Assembly (NCBI GenBank): GCA_023251255.1
Contig: JAHEZD010000016.1
Coordinates: forward strand, 1-64,000
Length of the DNA stretch: 64,000 nt
Source: Chitinophagaceae bacterium
GTDB lineage: Bacteria > Bacteroidota > Bacteroidia > Chitinophagales > Chitinophagaceae
Direction: 5' to 3'
Shown here: positions 181 through 59,113 of the stretch, one piece after another
Layout of the letters: the number at the start of each line of letters is the position of its first letter
Position numbering within the stretch: the first letter of the stretch is position 1
Position numbers and translations under genes: made by a program
The notes under the pieces: model-generated
What the model was told of the DNA's origin: nothing
What the model saw: only the letters and a program-made list of their open reading frames with translations
Databases searched by the model: none

Positions 181-400
181 TGCTAAAGCTGCATTTTCAA
201 TTTTCACCAACGGAACTGGTGAGCCAGGATTTCGTTTATGTCATCCATCCTGCAGGTGGAAACCTGCCTTTGCCGGCAGGCAGGCACCATGCAGGGGCGG
301 CGTTTTTTAATTAAGTTCACAGGCAGGAACACCAGCAAACTACAGCTCCTCAATAGCTCTATCCATAATAATAGCCATTCTTTTAAAGGTTTGATTTTAT

Positions 401-408
401 TAGTTTTG
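401..408 (+). promoter_or_regulatory. Bacteroidota -7 promoter element (TAGTTTTG)
   Basis: TAGTTTTG matches the Bacteroidota primary-sigma -7 consensus TAnnTTTG. It ends four bases before the ATG at 413. Either the AraC transcript is almost leaderless or translation starts at the ATG at 452. Confidence 0.4.
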
Positions 409-412
409 TAGC

Positions 413-1279
413 ATGGCCGTTGATGTGTTAGCTGAAATTCCGGGGGTCAATATGGAGGACTTGAGGCTCAAAGGTTTCAAGGTGCATGAGCTTCCGGCAG
501 TGGTGGATATCCCCGTTCCGCGCGGCAGGCGTGATTATTATAAAATGGGCCTGGTGACGGGTGAAATGACGGTTGGTTACGGCAATCAGCTTTTAGCGTT
601 CCAGGATACGGTACTCTTTTTTGTTAATCCAAACGTGCCCCGTTCTGTGGTCCGCCGTTCTGCCAGCACGACCGGCTATGCATGTATTTTTACGGAAACT
701 TTTATTAAACGGAAGGAAATACTAAAGGAATCCCCCTTGTTCCATGTGGGCGATAGCCCGGTAATTCCACTCAACGGCGAGCAGGTGGTATTTATGACCG
801 GCATCTTTCAAAAGATGCTGGCGGTGTATAACGGTGATTACCCCTATAAGGGCGAACTGATCAGGAACTGTATCGAGCTGGTCATTCACGAAGCCTTGCG
901 GATACAGCCATCGAAAAACGCCTCGTCGGTTATTAATGCGGCAACCCGCATCACTCGTTTATTCATGGACATGCTGGAACGGCAGTTCCCCATTGAGCGG
1001 AGCAATGATCCACTTAGGCTGAGGACCGCAAAGGATTTTGCAGAAGGTCTTTCGGTTCATGTCAACTATTTGAACCGTAAGGTAAAGGAGGTAACGGGGA
1101 AACCCACTTCTGTACATATCGCGGAGCGGATCGCCGCCGAAGCGAAAGCCCTTTTGCAGCATACCGACTGGACTGTGGCAGATATTTCCTATGCCCTGGG
1201 CTTTGAATATCCCACCTATTTCAATAACTATTTTAAGAGGGTAACTGGTGTTACGCCCAAATCATTTAGAAAGGTTTGA
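413..1279 (+). CDS. AraC family transcriptional regulator
   Basis: A 288-residue DNA-binding regulator. The first ~180 residues form the variable sensor region. The C-terminal ~100 residues carry the double helix-turn-helix of the AraC family: DFAEGLSVHVNYLNRKVKE is the first HTH, and the end has the diagnostic WTVADISYALGFEYPTYF and FKRVTGVTPKSFR. The ATG at 413 is used, but the -7 element at 401-408 would also fit a start at 452 (MEDLRLKGF). The next gene, an epimerase in the same direction, begins 63 bp downstream and is the obvious candidate target or co-transcribed partner. The ligand is unknown. Confidence 0.9.
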   Translation: MAVDVLAEIPGVNMEDLRLKGFKVHELPAVVDIPVPRGRRDYYKMGLVTGEMTVGYGNQLLAFQDTVLFFVNPNVPRSVVRRSASTTGYACIFTETFIKRKEILKESPLFHVGDSPVIPLNGEQVVFMTGIFQKMLAVYNGDYPYKGELIRNCIELVIHEALRIQPSKNASSVINAATRITRLFMDMLERQFPIERSNDPLRLRTAKDFAEGLSVHVNYLNRKVKEVTGKPTSVHIAERIAAEAKALLQHTDWTVADISYALGFEYPTYFNNYFKRVTGVTPKSFRKV

Positions 1280-1342
1280 AAATCATACTTATTGGTTTGA
1301 TTGTCATTAGTGCTGTGCAGGTTCTGGTGGGAACTTTGGACC

Positions 1343-2203
1343 ATGAAAATATTAGTTACAGGCGCTACCGGAAAGGTAGGCAGTAGATTTGTTCCGCGCC
1401 TTTTAGCCAAAGGGCATGAAGTGAGCATCCTGGTACGTGATGCGGCGAAGGCCGCAGCATTAACGGCACTTGGTGCCAGGGCTGTTGTTGGTGATTTATT
1501 TAGTCCGGCTACTTTACCGCCCGCGGTGGAAGGCATGGAGACCGTGGTTCACCTAGCTGCGCTTTTTCGGACCTTTACCGATAATGAAGGTATTGTAAAG
1601 ACTAATCACGAGGGAACGGTAGCACTGGCCAATGCCGCCATGGGCGCAGGTGTGAAACGGTTTATTTTTGTAAGTACGGGCAATGTGTATAGTGCAGGCT
1701 ATAAACATCCTGCCAGGGAAGATGATCTGGTGAACATGGATGATCCGAGGCCCTATTCGTCCAGCAAAATCGCGGCGGAGCAGGCGCTTCTTACGCTTCA
1801 AAAAAACACGGACTTTGATGTCCGCATCCTGCGTTTAGGTTTTGTGTACGGCGACAGGGACCCACATATCGCAGAAATCATCCCATTGCTGAAAAAAATG
1901 AAGCGCCACTCCGGTTCAAGAATGCACATGGTCCACCATTTGGATGTTGCCCAGGCCTTGAACCTACTGCTGCATACCGATGGATTAGATGGGGAAATCT
2001 TTAATATCGCGGATCATGCGCCCATCACTTTGTATGAAATGGCTGTATCTGTGGGCAAGGCAGCGGACACTTTTGACCTGGAAGAACAGCCCTTGGTTGA
2101 CCCATTTGAAGGCATCATGGATATTTCAAAACTGCGGAGCAAAACTGGTTTCAGGCCACTGGTGCCCAGCTACTACGTAGCACGCGATCTGGATCTTTTG
2201 TAA
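1343..2203 (+). CDS. NAD-dependent epimerase/dehydratase (extended SDR)
   Basis: The 286-residue protein starts at the ATG at 1343, giving [16 protein letters not shown] with the Rossmann TGxxGxxG nucleotide-binding motif at residues 7-14. An in-frame TTG at 1301 would add 14 residues that do not look like SDR sequence. The active-site YSSSKIAAE (YxxxK) follows a DDPRP segment, as in extended SDRs acting on nucleotide sugars or similar hydroxy/keto substrates. It follows the AraC gene closely and may share its transcript. The exact substrate cannot be read from sequence. A perfect 14-bp hairpin at 2334-2369 is a plausible terminator. Confidence 0.85.
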
Positions 2204-2333
2204 TTTGGGCCAATCATCCACTAGGAAGTCGTTTCATTCTTAAAAAGAAGCCAATGATAGGACACCCAATATTGGGCTGATCTTCCATGACAATATTTTT
2301 TTTGCAGCAAATACAATGGCATTTCCATTAATG

Positions 2334-2375
2334 AACAACCCGCTAAAACAAATACTTTAGCGGGTTGTTTTGTTT
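2334..2375. terminator. Rho-independent terminator hairpin
   Basis: Perfect inverted repeat AACAACCCGCTAAA (2334-2347) and TTTAGCGGGTTGTT (2356-2369) with an 8-nt loop, followed on the + strand by a T-rich stretch. It may end the epimerase transcript, or have belonged to the minus-strand tRNA-like sequence beside it. Confidence 0.6.
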
Positions 2376-2376
2376 C

Positions 2377-2407
2377 AGCGAGAAAGAGGAATCGAACCCA
2401 CGACCTA
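2377..2407 (-). other. tRNA 3'-end-like fragment
   Basis: On the minus strand this reads AGGTCGTGGGTTCGATTCC and then a CTTTCTCGC tail. That resembles the variable loop, T-arm (GGTTCGATTCC) and 3' acceptor strand of a tRNA. The T-stem is imperfect (GTGGG against CCTCT), and no matching D-arm, anticodon arm or 5' acceptor strand lies at higher coordinates, so it is not an intact tRNA. tRNA 3' fragments are often left at the far end of integrated elements; that reading is inference. Confidence 0.35.
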
Positions 2408-2480
2408 AGTACTAATTTCCACGTTGTGTTGGACAATACAAATATTGTAAAATGAATTTCCTGTTAGCCATTTTCTATAA

Positions 2481-2545
2481 TTGGTTAGTGTTCCCTTCTA
2501 ACTACAAGCATAAAAAAGAACCACCGCCCCGGTGTGTTTTCCCTG
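2481..2545 (+). repeat. Dispersed repeat, copy 2
   Basis: Diverged copy of the repeat at 119-180 and 3256-3325 (order GGTTAGTGTTCCC, A-rich middle, GAACCACCGCC, GGTGTGTTTTCC). It lies upstream of the AT-rich orphan gene at 2705, and the next copy lies just after that gene. Confidence 0.45.
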
Positions 2546-2566
2546 CTCTCGTGAGATTGCCTATCA

Positions 2567-2658
2567 AATCGGAGGGCTATCCGTAGATTTCGAGCGGTTG
2601 CAAAGTGCCAAGCTATCTACGGATTTCCAATGAAAGCCAGTTTGTAACTGGCTAGAAC
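2567..2658 (+). repeat. Two-stem-loop dispersed repeat, copy 1
   Basis: Two inverted repeats in tandem: ATCCGTAG (2579-2586) with CTACGGAT (2617-2624), then AGCCAGTT (2635-2642) with AACTGGCT (2646-2653). Related copies, reverse-oriented, lie at 31803-31890 and about 33521-33598. The element ends 46 bp before the start of the AT-rich gene at 2705, and the 31.8-kb copy similarly lies upstream of an AT-rich gene. It could be a cassette recombination-site-like element or a structured leader; its function is unknown. Confidence 0.6.
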
Positions 2659-2704
2659 CTGTTATCTTGTCAACTGTCAAAAACAACATCTAACCACAGA
2701 AACG

Positions 2705-3175
2705 ATGGAATATTATAAGATAGTAGAGATATTTGATGGACATTATCAAGTGTTATTGGATTCTTTTGATAAGTTGAATCTATTCAGGATAATAGATAGA
2801 TCATATAAATATGTTTGGGGGATAGGGCACATTGAAAATGCTGTAGAATGGGCCAATTATAATGACTCCTTATATAGAAGCGAAATTGACACTAAAGTAT
2901 TGGCTAGAAATATTTCTATGGAATATTTGTTGAAAACAGAAGATTTTTTAAAACTTGTCCCTTCTATACACCAGACTGTTAAAATAATTCAGACAAATAT
3001 TGAGCCGCCCTACTTTTTAACTATTGAAAGATTAACTGGTAAAGGGAAATACGACTTATTGAGAGATAAAATAAACTATTTGTTTGAGTTGGAAATGCCA
3101 GGAGCATCGGATTATTCAACTATAATTAGTCCTGACAAAATGTTTTTAGAGGCACTCATTAAAGAATTTAGCTAG
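2705..3175 (+). CDS. Hypothetical AT-rich orphan protein
   Basis: A 156-residue protein with no family I recognise. It has no signal peptide or membrane segment. The sequence is rich in aromatic and charged residues (MEYYKIVEIF at the N-terminus, EMPGASDYSTIISPDKMF near the end). Its base composition is clearly more AT-rich than the flanking metabolic genes, which suggests transfer. It stands alone between repeat copies at 2481 and 3256, with the two-stem-loop repeat directly upstream, as in a single-gene cassette. It could be an immunity or accessory-function protein, but nothing proves this. Confidence 0.65.
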   Translation: MEYYKIVEIFDGHYQVLLDSFDKLNLFRIIDRSYKYVWGIGHIENAVEWANYNDSLYRSEIDTKVLARNISMEYLLKTEDFLKLVPSIHQTVKIIQTNIEPPYFLTIERLTGKGKYDLLRDKINYLFELEMPGASDYSTIISPDKMFLEALIKEFS

Positions 3176-3255
3176 AATGCTTTGTAGTTGATTGGTACGC
3201 TTGATACAAGAACGCCCAAATTTTAATTCTATGAAACCTATAGTTTGCATGTATT

Positions 3256-3325
3256 GTAGTTGGCTGGTGTTTCTCCTAAACGAAAGCACAAAAGGAACGA
3301 ACGCCTTGGTGTTTTCCACCAACCG
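3256..3325 (+). repeat. Dispersed repeat, copy 3
   Basis: Same-orientation copy of the repeat at 119 and 2481, with GGCTGGTGTTTCTCC, an A-rich middle, GGAACGAACGCC and then a small stem-loop TTGGTG...CACCAA. It begins about 80 bp after the stop codon of the AT-rich orphan gene, so that gene is bracketed by direct copies. Confidence 0.5.
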
Positions 3326-3570
3326 AACTTAGAAGGGATGCCTATCGGAATGGTTAAATACGTGTCTTTTGATAAATCACCATCGTTTCTTAGTTGCGCC
3401 ATAGTTTATCATCCTTTCTCCATTCCTCTTTTGTTGGGCAAATCCCAGTGCATGTACATCTATAAATCTTGCTGCTTCTGGACTCTGCTGCATCCCTGCT
3501 GACGTGCTTAACCTACCTCATTTGAACCACTGCAAACGCAAAATGAGCCCGCCTGTTTCGCCATTTTCCA

Positions 3571-3624
3571 TTTGTGGTAATTTTTTTGTGGTAAAAAAAT
3601 TTACCACAAAAAAATTACCACAAA
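3571..3624 (+). promoter_or_regulatory. 14-bp-period hairpin upstream of HTH gene (locus 1)
   Basis: A perfect 25-bp inverted repeat (3571-3595 and 3600-3624) with a 4-nt A loop. Each arm contains the word TGTGGTAA twice, starting at 3573 and 3587, so offset by 14 bases and separated by a T tract. Two related structures, each with a different word, lie at 39131-39262 and 58870-58912, and all three precede an HTH-protein gene or its remnant. It could be an operator for the HTH protein, a structured RNA, or a recombination/replication site. Confidence 0.75.
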
Positions 3625-3693
3625 TTTGGCAGCGCCAAACGGAACGTGAAAAACGACGCTAAGTAAATTGCTGTAATCAAATACGTCACGGTT

Positions 3694-4206
3694 ATGGCCT
3701 ATCCAAAAGAGTTACGCAAGCAATTGGGACTGTCACTAGCAGAAATGTCCACGCTTATCCACTGCGGGCAAAGCCTGCTTTCCATGGTAGAAATGGGCAA
3801 ACGGGAACTGCCTACCATTTGCCTTGGCCCACTATGGGCACTGGAAACTGCCGCAGCAGCGGCTACCGTGAGCAATAGCTCCCTGCCCAATGCGCCAGCA
3901 ACAATCAAGTGGCTGAAGCGGCAATTACGCAATGGCAGGGCCAGCAGGCAGCGGCTGCAACTGGAGCGGGAAAAACTGGAGGAGCAGGCGCAGCAGGTGG
4001 GCCACTGGCTTGAAACGGCGGTCCAATTGACTGCTAACCCATATTTTAACGGCGATGACCTGGCAGGCATGCAATTCCAGTTGTGCAAAAGGAAGGCGGA
4101 ACAGAAGCTGCAGCAACTGCAACTGTCGCAATACAGGGTGCAGGTAAAAGCTGCCACTTTGGATGCGAACATTGCAGCAGTGGAGGCATTGCTGGATGCT
4201 CCATGA
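3694..4206 (+). CDS. Small HTH protein with helical C-terminus (hairpin-associated, locus 1)
   Basis: 170 residues. Residues ~1-45 resemble an XRE/Cro-type helix-turn-helix (LRKQLGLSLAEMSTLIHCGQ, then LLSMVEMGKRELPT). From ~65 onward the protein is Ala/Gln/Leu/Lys-rich and predicted helical or coiled-coil (RQRLQLEREKLEEQAQQ). The start at 3694 lies 70 bp after the perfect hairpin with repeated TGTGGTAA words. A protein of the same layout occurs at 39283-39813, also behind a hairpin, and a decayed version at about 58950-59110. A DNA-binding role is inferred from the HTH; the target is probably the hairpin words. Its biological role is unknown. Confidence 0.75.
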   Translation: MAYPKELRKQLGLSLAEMSTLIHCGQSLLSMVEMGKRELPTICLGPLWALETAAAAATVSNSSLPNAPATIKWLKRQLRNGRASRQRLQLEREKLEEQAQQVGHWLETAVQLTANPYFNGDDLAGMQFQLCKRKAEQKLQQLQLSQYRVQVKAATLDANIAAVEALLDAP

Positions 4207-4325
4207 AAACAGTGGAAGCCTGCATTGTTGGCCATGTGCACAGCAGGCCCCGTTCATGAAGTGTACAATTTACTGGACAGTGCCTACCATGAAGGGCACA
4301 GCAGTTGCCTTCTGCCACTTGATTG

Positions 4326-5381
4326 ATGGTTACCATCCGTTTCCATTTTCCCCATCTACGGTACCCACCTGTACATTATCTTGCCACCGTGAACTACTTC
4401 CAGCTTTCATACTATGGTTTGGACTATGGCATCAGTGCCTATAAGCAGCTTCGTTTCATGAAGCAGTTCCTGAAACCCATTGTGGATAGGCATTGTGAGG
4501 CCCTTGACTATCCACTGTCCAAAAAGGAAAAGAAGAAAGTGGATTTTTATTATCCCCTGTTCAACCATATTGTCAACTGCGAAAACTATCTCTGCATCAA
4601 GGGCAGGAGGTTGACCCTGCAGGAATCGCAACGCCTTGCCATCATTTCAGCCATGGCCACTTTGTATGATGACCTGATTGATGAGGAGGACTGGGAGAAG
4701 GAACAGTATTTCCAGATCCTTGATAGAACATTGCCATTGGTACAGCAAACCCCCAAGGTGAAGCTCATTTTTGCTTTGGACAATGAACTCCAGCAGTATT
4801 GGCAGCCCACCCAAACCTATCGGGAGGCTTTGAAACTGGCCATTGAGTGGCAGGTAATTTCTGCAAGGCAATTGCAAACAGGTATTTCGCTCAAGGAAAT
4901 CCTGCATATCTCGGAAAAGAAATGTGGCAACAGTTCCCTGCTTTGGGCCAGCATTATGGACGAGGACTGGAAAGTAGAAGACCATCAATTTATCTATCAA
5001 TCCGGCTATGTGGGGCAAATAGTCAATGACCTGTTTGATGCTTTCAAGGACAGGGAAGATGGGGTATTTACAATTGTCCGAAAGTCAGGCTCGGTAGCTG
5101 GGTCAAAAGAAATTTTCCTGAGGGAATGCAGTAAGCTGCACCAGGCTATCCTGGGTTGCCATGTTCCCCAAAGCAGGAAGTTGAGGACCATCAGGCGCAT
5201 GGCATGCATCCATGCTTTTGCACTGGTTTCCCTGGAGCATTTGCAGGACGCAGAAAACAAATACGGGTTGCCAATGGATTGGGGCAGGGCCTTAAGAAGT
5301 GAACTGGTAACGGATATGGCTTTCTGGCGCAATAAGTTCAAGCTGCTGAAATATGCTTGTGCATTAGCTGAATTGAGGTAG
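4326..5381 (+). CDS. Class I isoprenoid-synthase-like enzyme
   Basis: The 351-residue all-helical protein carries two aspartate-rich motifs expected for Mg-diphosphate binding in the class I isoprenoid synthase (terpene cyclase/prenyltransferase) fold: DDLIDEED at residues 115-122 and NDLFDAFKDRED at 234-245. These would bind a prenyl diphosphate. The order and spacing fit the fold, but the sequence is far from standard polyprenyl synthases, so product and substrate are unknown. The start at 4326 follows an in-frame stop at 4320; a later ATG at 4458 would remove ~44 residues. No terpene or carotenoid genes are adjacent. A palindromic repeat follows the stop. Confidence 0.65.
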   Translation: MVTIRFHFPHLRYPPVHYLATVNYFQLSYYGLDYGISAYKQLRFMKQFLKPIVDRHCEALDYPLSKKEKKKVDFYYPLFNHIVNCENYLCIKGRRLTLQESQRLAIISAMATLYDDLIDEEDWEKEQYFQILDRTLPLVQQTPKVKLIFALDNELQQYWQPTQTYREALKLAIEWQVISARQLQTGISLKEILHISEKKCGNSSLLWASIMDEDWKVEDHQFIYQSGYVGQIVNDLFDAFKDREDGVFTIVRKSGSVAGSKEIFLRECSKLHQAILGCHVPQSRKLRTIRRMACIHAFALVSLEHLQDAENKYGLPMDWGRALRSELVTDMAFWRNKFKLLKYACALAELR

Positions 5382-39130: not shown

Positions 39131-39262
39131 AATAAATGTCCTCAAATTTTTTGTCCTCAAAAAAAATAGGACATTTAAAGTGAGGACATTTGTGTTCCCA
39201 ATAAATGTCCTCATTTTTTTGTCCTCAAAATAAAAAGGGCATTTAAATGAGGACATTTTTTG
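39131..39262 (+). promoter_or_regulatory. Duplicated 14-bp-period hairpin upstream of HTH gene (locus 2)
   Basis: Two tandem units. Unit 1 (about 39131-39192) has TGTCCTCA at 39137 and 39152 and inverted words AGGACA and TGAGGACA. Unit 2 (about 39203-39262) has TGTCCTCA at 39206 and 39220 (14 apart) and GGGCATTT and TGAGGACA. The arms and T-tract spacers mirror the hairpin at 3571-3624, but with a different word. The right arm ends 20 bp before the HTH start codon, a position suited to an operator or leader RNA. Confidence 0.75.
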
Positions 39263-39282
39263 TCAACCTAAAAAAGAAAGCG

Positions 39283-39813
39283 ATGATTGACAACATATCA
39301 CTGGCAGCGGAAATTCGGGAACTCACCGGCATCAGTAAACGGGAACTGGCAAAATGGTTTGATATGGATCAAAGTGCATTGAGCAAGTCCAATTTGGGCC
39401 ACCGTGGCATACCGCTACATGCTGGGAGCCTTGAAGTGGATATGCATGCAGCCATGCGGAAGCTGGTAATAAATGAAGTTCCAGCAATGGATACGGTGAA
39501 TAAAGACAAAATACTTAACCATGCCATCCAGTGCCGTAGACGGTACACCCTCCTGCAATTTAAACTGGATAAAATGAAACATGCTTACAAGCAGGCAGTT
39601 ACCCGGCTTGCGCTAATGGAAACCAATCCACCCAATAGACACTTACCTGAACCGGTTAGGCAAAACTGGATAGAGAGCCAATGCTACTACGCCAAAAAGA
39701 TAATGGAGGACACTGGATGGTATGCCCAAACACAAATAACCATAAGGATGGCGGTGCTGGAAAGGGAGGCTGAGCTTTATGAAGCGGCTGCAAATACAAT
39801 CATAAACCAGTGA
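39283..39813 (+). CDS. Small HTH protein with helical C-terminus (hairpin-associated, locus 2)
   Basis: 176 residues from the ATG at 39283 (MIDNISLAAEIRELTGISKRE). The N-terminal ~55 residues are a helix-turn-helix (TGISKRELAKWFDMDQSALSK); the rest is helical and basic (HAIQCRRRYTLLQFKLDKMK, YYAKKIMED). The architecture matches the protein at 3694, although sequence identity is low, and both follow a hairpin with paired repeat words. An in-frame ATG at 39247 lies inside the hairpin arm and is unlikely to be the start. DNA-binding is inferred; the role is unknown. Confidence 0.7.
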   Translation: MIDNISLAAEIRELTGISKRELAKWFDMDQSALSKSNLGHRGIPLHAGSLEVDMHAAMRKLVINEVPAMDTVNKDKILNHAIQCRRRYTLLQFKLDKMKHAYKQAVTRLALMETNPPNRHLPEPVRQNWIESQCYYAKKIMEDTGWYAQTQITIRMAVLEREAELYEAAANTIINQ

Positions 39814-58869: not shown

Positions 58870-58912
58870 AAAATGCGACACTTTTTTTGCGACATTTTAA
58901 AATGTCGCATTT
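58870..58912 (+). promoter_or_regulatory. 14-bp-period hairpin (locus 3, decayed)
   Basis: The word TGCGACA at 58874 recurs at 58888 (14 apart) after a T-tract; 58888-58909 is a perfect 22-bp palindrome of TGCGACATTTT and its complement. The outer partner present at locus 1 is missing and only T-rich sequence remains. A decayed HTH gene follows at about 58950. Confidence 0.65.
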
Positions 58913-58949
58913 TTTTTGAAATTTTTTTGACGGCTTCCGGGCAGAATTG

Positions 58950-59113
58950 CAAATCAGTACGATTATCAGTCAAGTCCAACAACGAAATGGTTTCAGCCAG
59001 CAGGAACTGGTGACTTTGCTATAGCCAGTAATTTTAGGTTCCCAAACGAAATACAGCAATGAACAGATGCTTACCAACGGACTCCATGGCCAGAGTTCCA
59101 TCAAATCTAGACA
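58950..59113 (+). pseudogene. Decayed hairpin-associated HTH gene (locus 3)
   Basis: One frame from about 58950 reads ISQVQQRNGFSQQELVTLL and then a stop, matching the start of an XRE-type HTH. Another frame about 70 bp later gives AMNRCLPTDSMARVPSNL, resembling the MxKGKRxLPTxxL motif that follows the HTH at locus 1 (VEMGKRELPT). A frameshift and nonsense changes have destroyed the gene. Its presence behind a locus-3 hairpin makes the hairpin-HTH association recurrent. Confidence 0.5.

Follow-up and report, generated by a model that had tools for sequence, protein, structure and literature searches.

What is the function of the repeated short words that stand just upstream of a helix-turn-helix gene in this window (the whole 64 kb stretch analysed here), and why does the same layout recur with different words? 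The sequence-only reading had placed the word TGTCCTCA at 39137, 39152, 39206 and 39220, and all four starts were borne out. Of the inverted copies, one begins at 39166 with two mismatches and the others at 39181 and 39248. The resulting array (about 39137-39255, assigned to neither strand) contains two quads of the word TGTCCTCA/TGAGGACA, with one damaged word in each half, and is predicted to serve the downstream gene as binding array and operator. Words of its first half are spaced 15, 14 and 15 bp start to start, and three of the seven solo copies of this array elsewhere in the genome show the full layout of 15, 14, 15, then 26, then 15, 14, 15, or are one base off. The downstream gene (39283-39813, plus strand) encodes a helix-turn-helix protein of 176 aa with a helical C-terminal part, identified by family search, homologue alignment and structure model. 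The ORF list opens its frame at 39247, within the last array word; the likely start codon is the ATG at 39283, favoured by homologue alignment, which lies 27 bp from the end of the array.

Paired words before a helix-turn-helix gene or its remnant were confirmed at all three window loci (39137, 3571 and 58874). The second locus has a perfect single quad of the word TTTGTGGTAA/TTACCACAAA (3571-3624, assigned to neither strand), found by pattern match and by the quad detector, followed by a gene for a paralogous helix-turn-helix protein of 170 aa (3694-4206, plus strand), whose Pfam HTH_3 match is above the cut-off (23.8 vs 23 bits). At the third, three of the four words of a TGCGACA array were found by pattern match (58874-58915, assigned to neither strand), the remnant of a TGCGACA locus; the decayed leader and start of a family gene follow (58916-59010, plus strand), recognized because the DNA, together with the array, is 72% identical over 149 bp to L057, an intact TGCGACA locus. 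When the detector was run over the 64 kb window with 7-mers and up to 2 mismatches, two quads were returned, and dinucleotide shuffles (one for each of 36 scanned sequences, 731,568 bp together) gave none at up to 2 mismatches.

The host genome harbors 25 full-length copies of the protein family. A single-sequence search returned 6 copies and a profile 31 matches, four of which are fragments at contig ends. Contigs C178, C56, C152 and C113 of the draft assembly end within family genes, which form two near-identical pairs (98% and 96%); the assembly breaks at family genes, and the copy number may be undercounted. One genome of the same genus (G002) has five copies, and no full-length copy was found in the other eight same-genus genomes searched. 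With an improved profile, the best 8 candidates per genome being scored, full-length homologues were detected in other genera of Chitinophagaceae, and 40 of these, from six genera, were taken. Scanning named genomes turned up six loci in Niabella aurantiaca, N. pedocola, a Niabella MAG and a Sphingobacteriales MAG, Niabella being a member of Chitinophagaceae; two short helix-turn-helix matches in Veillonella from the same scan were set aside. Genome G275, of a second genus, has at least 8 family genes and at least 53 array-model hits and perhaps represents a separate amplification of the family. Phage and plasmid records contained no match to one family member and viral contigs none to another, each search being a single query from a divergent family. 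No description of such a protein-array system was found in the titles and opening lines of abstracts covered by our literature search, and we regard the helix-turn-helix family as undescribed.

Most of these genes share a layout upstream. A quad consists of one word present twice at 14-15 bp, followed by the reverse complement of the same word, also twice. Our detector sought this order (W..W..R..R) in the 320 nt upstream, using 7-mers, offsets of 12-17 and at most 3 mismatches in all; the partial rows L032 and L034 were excluded from every upstream count. Quads were found upstream of 26 of the 33 copies of the genus (28 from the host genome, three of them fragments, and 5 from G002; three of the 26 positives are gene fragments), against 2 of 660 dinucleotide shuffles. 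Among the 40 homologues of other genera, which are independent of the detector design and include two with almost no upstream DNA, 24 have a quad, against 5 of 800 shuffles. The six named-genome loci all have one, at least four of them overlapping the 40-homologue set. Both offsets are 14 or 15 in 48 of the 50 quad-positive copies and equal in 43. No proximal quad was detected in 7 of the 33 genus copies or in 16 of the 40 homologues (two of the 16 being those almost without upstream DNA), so the association of gene and paired words expected by the sequence-only reading holds for part of the family only. Many of these negatives have words in looser order. Among the seven of the genus, L009 and L025 have arrays elsewhere (in L009 5' of a neighbouring gene for a likely membrane protein; in L025 a weak array about 2 kb upstream, whose relation to L025 is uncertain), and the rest have only degenerate words or none.

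Some individual arrays have further peculiarities. Upstream of L177 a unit of about 42 bp with GGTATCAA/TTGATACC occurs in three tandem copies. L229:1698-2165 holds three kinds of array (TGTTAAG, TGTCAAG and ATGTCAC) within 500 bp, and a broken family gene follows from about 2429. In the TGCGACA arrays (L212-L226, L056 and L057) the spacers swap A-tracts and T-tracts independently in each arm, the words being constant.

The eight genome places with exact TGTCCTCA pairs (the window and seven more) allow words and spacers to be compared. Of their 55 words, 47 are exact; arrays of like layout (six of the eight places are comparable, as groups of four and two) are 97% identical in the words and 42% in the spacers. 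The 97% is somewhat favoured by selection, as up to 2 mismatches were accepted and one exact pair per place was required; this bias is far smaller than the gap. Because words are kept while spacers drift, the array looks like a protein-binding DNA site and not an RNA hairpin.

Structure models point to a DNA-binding protein. The model of a Niabella member (mean pLDDT 85) has a helix-turn-helix domain and then a long helical hairpin, and the window protein (39283) is modelled similarly at lower confidence (mean pLDDT 75), with helices at residues 7-15, 19-25, 30-37, 48-61, 74-114, 125-143 and 146-175. With the N-terminal domain of the Niabella model, the best Foldseek matches are C.BclI, C.Kpn2I, HipB and C.AhdI, with P22 c2 lower. 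These XRE-type matches have a probability of about 1 over some 46 residues, with E-values of only 0.05-0.4 and none at 0.001 or better; the model thus suggests a lambda-repressor-like fold, at weak E-values. Four proteins were scanned with Pfam, where the HTH_3 cut-off is 23 bits: P0002 (23.8) and L003 (32.4) pass, L006 (21.0) falls below, and the main protein of the window (39247 frame) has no match at E 1. Assigning a function from the C-terminal fold was abandoned: what it resembles, at Z 9-12, are generic coiled coils and helical bundles, and these scores fall within the background for helical proteins; at such Z a helical hairpin finds countless unrelated partners.

The words change together with the recognition helix, as the sequence-only reading had suggested. 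The words of 50 copies were aligned by sequence alone, without protein data, and their motif consists of variable positions followed by a conserved ACAA. Leaving out three gene fragments and L014 gave 46 word sets, and removing two near-identical copies gave the 44 used here. Among the 22 best columns, the strongest pair is the first recognition-helix residue (helix 3; the first residue of the third helix in the Niabella model) with word position 3 (z 9.0, n=44). Arginine at this residue goes with G in 23 of 23 copies and glutamine with A in 6 of 6, while 20 of the 21 non-Arg copies are without G (Fisher 1.2e-11), the exception being L050, which combines proline with G. Arg-G and Gln-A are classic contacts. 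When a tree is built from the C-terminal part alone, each of its 8 independent contrasts agrees with the code. The paralogue at 3694-4206 has glutamine at the code position, and its word has A at position 3. Summed over four word positions, column 32 ranks first and the code column second, and helix-turn-helix columns overall are only slightly above C-terminal ones (2.5 vs 1.9). A second, looser rule relates residue 30 to word position 5 (Met-C 25, Met-T 3, Leu-T 3, Arg-G 3, and others). Twelve of 15 copies outside the code test obey the code and L142, L159 and L009 break it; their words were picked out by eye before the residues were looked at, a procedure that allows some choice. The family proteins very likely recognise their words, judging from sequence. 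Together with the quad counts, the code supports the earlier proposal of a family of loci in which regulator and site diverge jointly and the 14-15 bp period is kept.

The gene neighbourhoods revealed no constant partner. Around 30 family loci the commonest neighbour is a protein of 136-158 aa, present at 7, and the next, a likely membrane protein, is present at 4; the toxin-antitoxin-like role left open by the sequence-only reading therefore finds no support. Seven recurring neighbour proteins were scanned with no Pfam match, and four with no PADLOC match. The 136-158 aa protein (L053:9077-9487, minus strand; L056:10035-10484; L060:3833-4243; L061:10834-11310; L063:9090-9500; L067:9209-9631, minus strand; L058:8960-9385, minus strand) appears by eye to be a coiled coil, starts like MSYSV..L.TVADCD and had no Pfam match among the four scanned. 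The other neighbour has about 200 aa and, by eye, a likely membrane segment at either end; it lies upstream of four family genes (L053:10158-10976, minus strand; L060:2673-3269; L062:328-912; L067:10160-10771, minus strand), which belong to one subfamily and are without a proximal array.

From two pairs of similar genes it can be seen that little more than the array and the gene is copied. L007 and L008 are 93% identical over 687 bp covering array and gene, with unrelated flanks, and L027 and L028 are 80% identical over 671 bp, again covering array and gene. These alignments give good support to the view that array-plus-gene units were copied to unrelated places and then diverged.

Many arrays have no gene. 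Exact TGCGACA pairs occur at 19 genome places, 15 of which have neither a family gene nor the window remnant, and a reversed-pattern control for exact pairs found none in the genome. In array-model searches the best 150 of some 400 to 4,400 first-look candidates per genome were scored, and all array numbers from them are lower bounds. A covariance model of eight arrays gave at least 140 hits at E 0.01 in its own genome, corresponding to 79 spans at about 72 places. Every one of the 40 model-found places inspected contains a quad; 39 of them fall outside ORFs longer than 130 aa, and a family gene is present in the stretch around one. A 298 kb sample of contigs picked by number contained 6 arrays in 4 stretches, with one weak gene match, and three shuffles of it contained none; if this sample is typical, the genome has about 120 arrays. 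Of 88 array places in 1.24 Mb of the genome, a selection deliberately weighted towards arrays, 20 have a family gene or fragment no further than 1.6 kb away; the other 68 have none so near. The TGCGACA class accounts for 16 of the 88, three of them with a gene, and the words TGTACCA, TGTGCCA, TGTAACC and TGAGACA were seen without any gene. Most array places read are without a family gene nearby, which goes part of the way towards what the sequence-only reading had counted against its proposal; across genomes, arrays do accompany the family. Flanking DNA was compared for 65 solo loci: 34 match another solo locus there and 22 match a gene locus, some matches being perhaps nearby repeats, and four of the loci are 94-98% alike over about 250 bp. 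Gene remnants were found by tblastn beside 0 of 62 solo arrays (controls, 2 of 75), so that solo arrays are mostly not demonstrable as relics. One locus (L254) has a short gene start beside its array, and another (L218) shares leader DNA with gene loci. The 124 neighbour proteins of solo arrays, once clustered, formed no recurring family and no group above 3; an apparently common neighbour of about 775 aa was rejected, being due to ORFs cut at stretch ends. An avoidance of divergent promoters was also discarded: of the first 22 solo loci, those with both neighbours showed none by eye, but 8 of 38 in the next set were divergent.

We consider it probable that the family comprises autoregulated, mutually insulated repressors which spread as array-plus-gene units, and that arrays are kept or spread without the gene. 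An array beside the gene, a fixed pitch, words that are kept while spacers drift, and word changes that track recognition-helix changes can all be read from the sequences. The gene product would be a lambda-repressor-type helix-turn-helix protein whose C-terminal helical hairpin probably oligomerises. Several copies would bind side by side on four (or twice four) words of 8-9 bp that are spaced at a 14-15 bp pitch and split evenly between the two orientations, and their assembly may be cooperative through the coiled coil. Because the quad lies at a median of 108 to 56 bp upstream of the start codon, the proteins likely repress their own genes, through the array. Units of about 690 bp, array and gene, were copied to unrelated places, and the copies diverge in recognition helix and word together and would thereby become insulated from their siblings. 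Solo intergenic arrays may be relics of decayed units, independently copied arrays or further sites of the cognate protein; what they do is the least secure part of the explanation. The 68 gene-free places, with their lack of a recurring neighbour family, are not accounted for by simple autoregulation, and the copies without a proximal quad, the three further copies that break the code and the proline of L050 also count against the explanation.

The gene-free places could alternatively indicate dispersed REP/BIME- or MITE-like repeats that spread alone or with another enzyme, while the helix-turn-helix proteins control or exploit the spread or merely travel along. The shared flanks of solo loci, the four that are nearly alike, the 15 gene-free TGCGACA pair places and the presence of three Y1 transposase (Y1_Tnp) genes in the genome agree with this. 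However, two such genes are also present in G013, a relative without arrays among its best 150 candidates, no nuclease or transposase domain was found in the family protein by Pfam, and the tetranucleotide tags GTAG and CGTC stand at the foot of 0 and 2 of 62 solo arrays, which is no enrichment over chance windows (59 and 11 of 620). Words are also kept far better than spacers, and the residue-to-word code ties the arrays to the protein. We therefore hold this alternative to be unlikely, if by no means negligible.

A role in organising or silencing the chromosome, with proteins bridging distant arrays via the coiled coil like site-specific nucleoid proteins, seems improbable to us. It would fit the many intergenic arrays of some words, as in the TGCGACA class, the lack of a recurring neighbour family and the long helical hairpin of the model, although such hairpins, as noted above, are matched by countless unrelated proteins. 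With the best 150 candidates scored per genome, array-model hits at E 0.001 were present in 8 of 10 genomes with the family and in 0 of 12 without it, and numbered at least 130 in the host genome, at least 53 in G275 and 0-5 in the other eight with the family, a range that would be odd for a core function. The model (R1) represents the 14-bp class and misses 15-bp arrays. One of the two genomes it missed, G335, has 15-bp arrays at 3 of 5 genes according to the detector, and the other, G283, has two genes with looser words only.

Far less credible are bidirectional intrinsic terminators, with a stem flanked by A and T tracts: the arrays are palindromes in intergenic spaces, many with poly-A/poly-T edges, but terminators need no direct word repetition, 14-15 bp pitch, poor spacer pairing or residue-to-word code, and 8 of the 38 places whose two neighbours were read are flanked by divergent genes. 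As to a structured RNA leader or an RNA hairpin recognised by the protein, which the sequence-only reading had entertained, the arms of each word pair can fold and six arrays (L013, L017, L026, L035, L036 and L170) are fully complementary in their spacers too, but spacers in the 43 of 50 arrays where they are equal in length pair little better than spacers from different copies (0.485 vs 0.411). The word pairs of eight arrays contain no G-U, which is weak evidence as the detector scores G-U as a mismatch; these arrays were chosen for symmetry, so that neither this absence nor the covariation score is independent. We rejected structured RNA, to which we give almost no credence, because spacers pair poorly and because they drift much more than the words do, including in solo arrays that are remote from the genes.

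The repressor explanation has a bolder form, which we advance tentatively as somewhat less probable than not. Protein and array would form a self-propagating family whose units copy around the genome and use the residue-to-base code to escape their siblings, leaving behind or seeding dozens of gene-free arrays that the cognate protein still binds, all without a transposase of their own. If this were true, the chromosome would carry protein-array systems, some tens of them, each insulated from the others. A single genome provides about 25 natural regulator-site pairs, all of one fold and with many words, and relatives provide dozens more; a DNA recognition code may therefore be readable from nature and directly testable. 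The pairs could also be a source of mutually insulated regulators for use in the laboratory. Solo arrays pose the question of how a short array spreads and stays nearly word-perfect without an adjoining gene.

The family resembles the XRE/HTH_3 repressors of the lambda/434/P22 type and the C proteins that control restriction-modification in its helix-turn-helix fold and in the site adjoining its own gene. In the 434 and lambda repressors the variable first residue of helix 3 reads the site, and in our family the same residue tracks it. The family departs from these repressors in its fixed W-W-R-R array at 14-15 bp pitch and its long C-terminal helical hairpin, in having 25 paralogues with many words within a single genome alongside dozens of solo arrays, and in the lack of a neighbour at more than 7 of 30 loci. 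Excerpts from work on REP/BIME/REPIN repeats with RAYT transposases describe dispersed intergenic short palindromes, some linked to one protein family (PMC3116915, PMC2817692, PMC3733652). The arrays are likewise palindromic and dispersed between genes, but their words are family-specific, with phased direct repeats within each arm, and the cognate protein is a helix-turn-helix protein in which no transposase domain was found. According to an excerpt, most, not all, REPs carry a GTAG or CGTC tag at the foot of the palindrome (PMC3733652), and the arrays are set apart because this tag is not enriched. Divergence of paralogues together with their sites, as in our family, is described for the expanded LacI-family regulons, again in an excerpt (PMC4052901); unlike those, most members here have no recurring neighbour gene, and array-plus-gene units are copied to new places. 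Among known kinds, XRE repressors and their operators come nearest, and REP-type repeats do so for the dispersed arrays.
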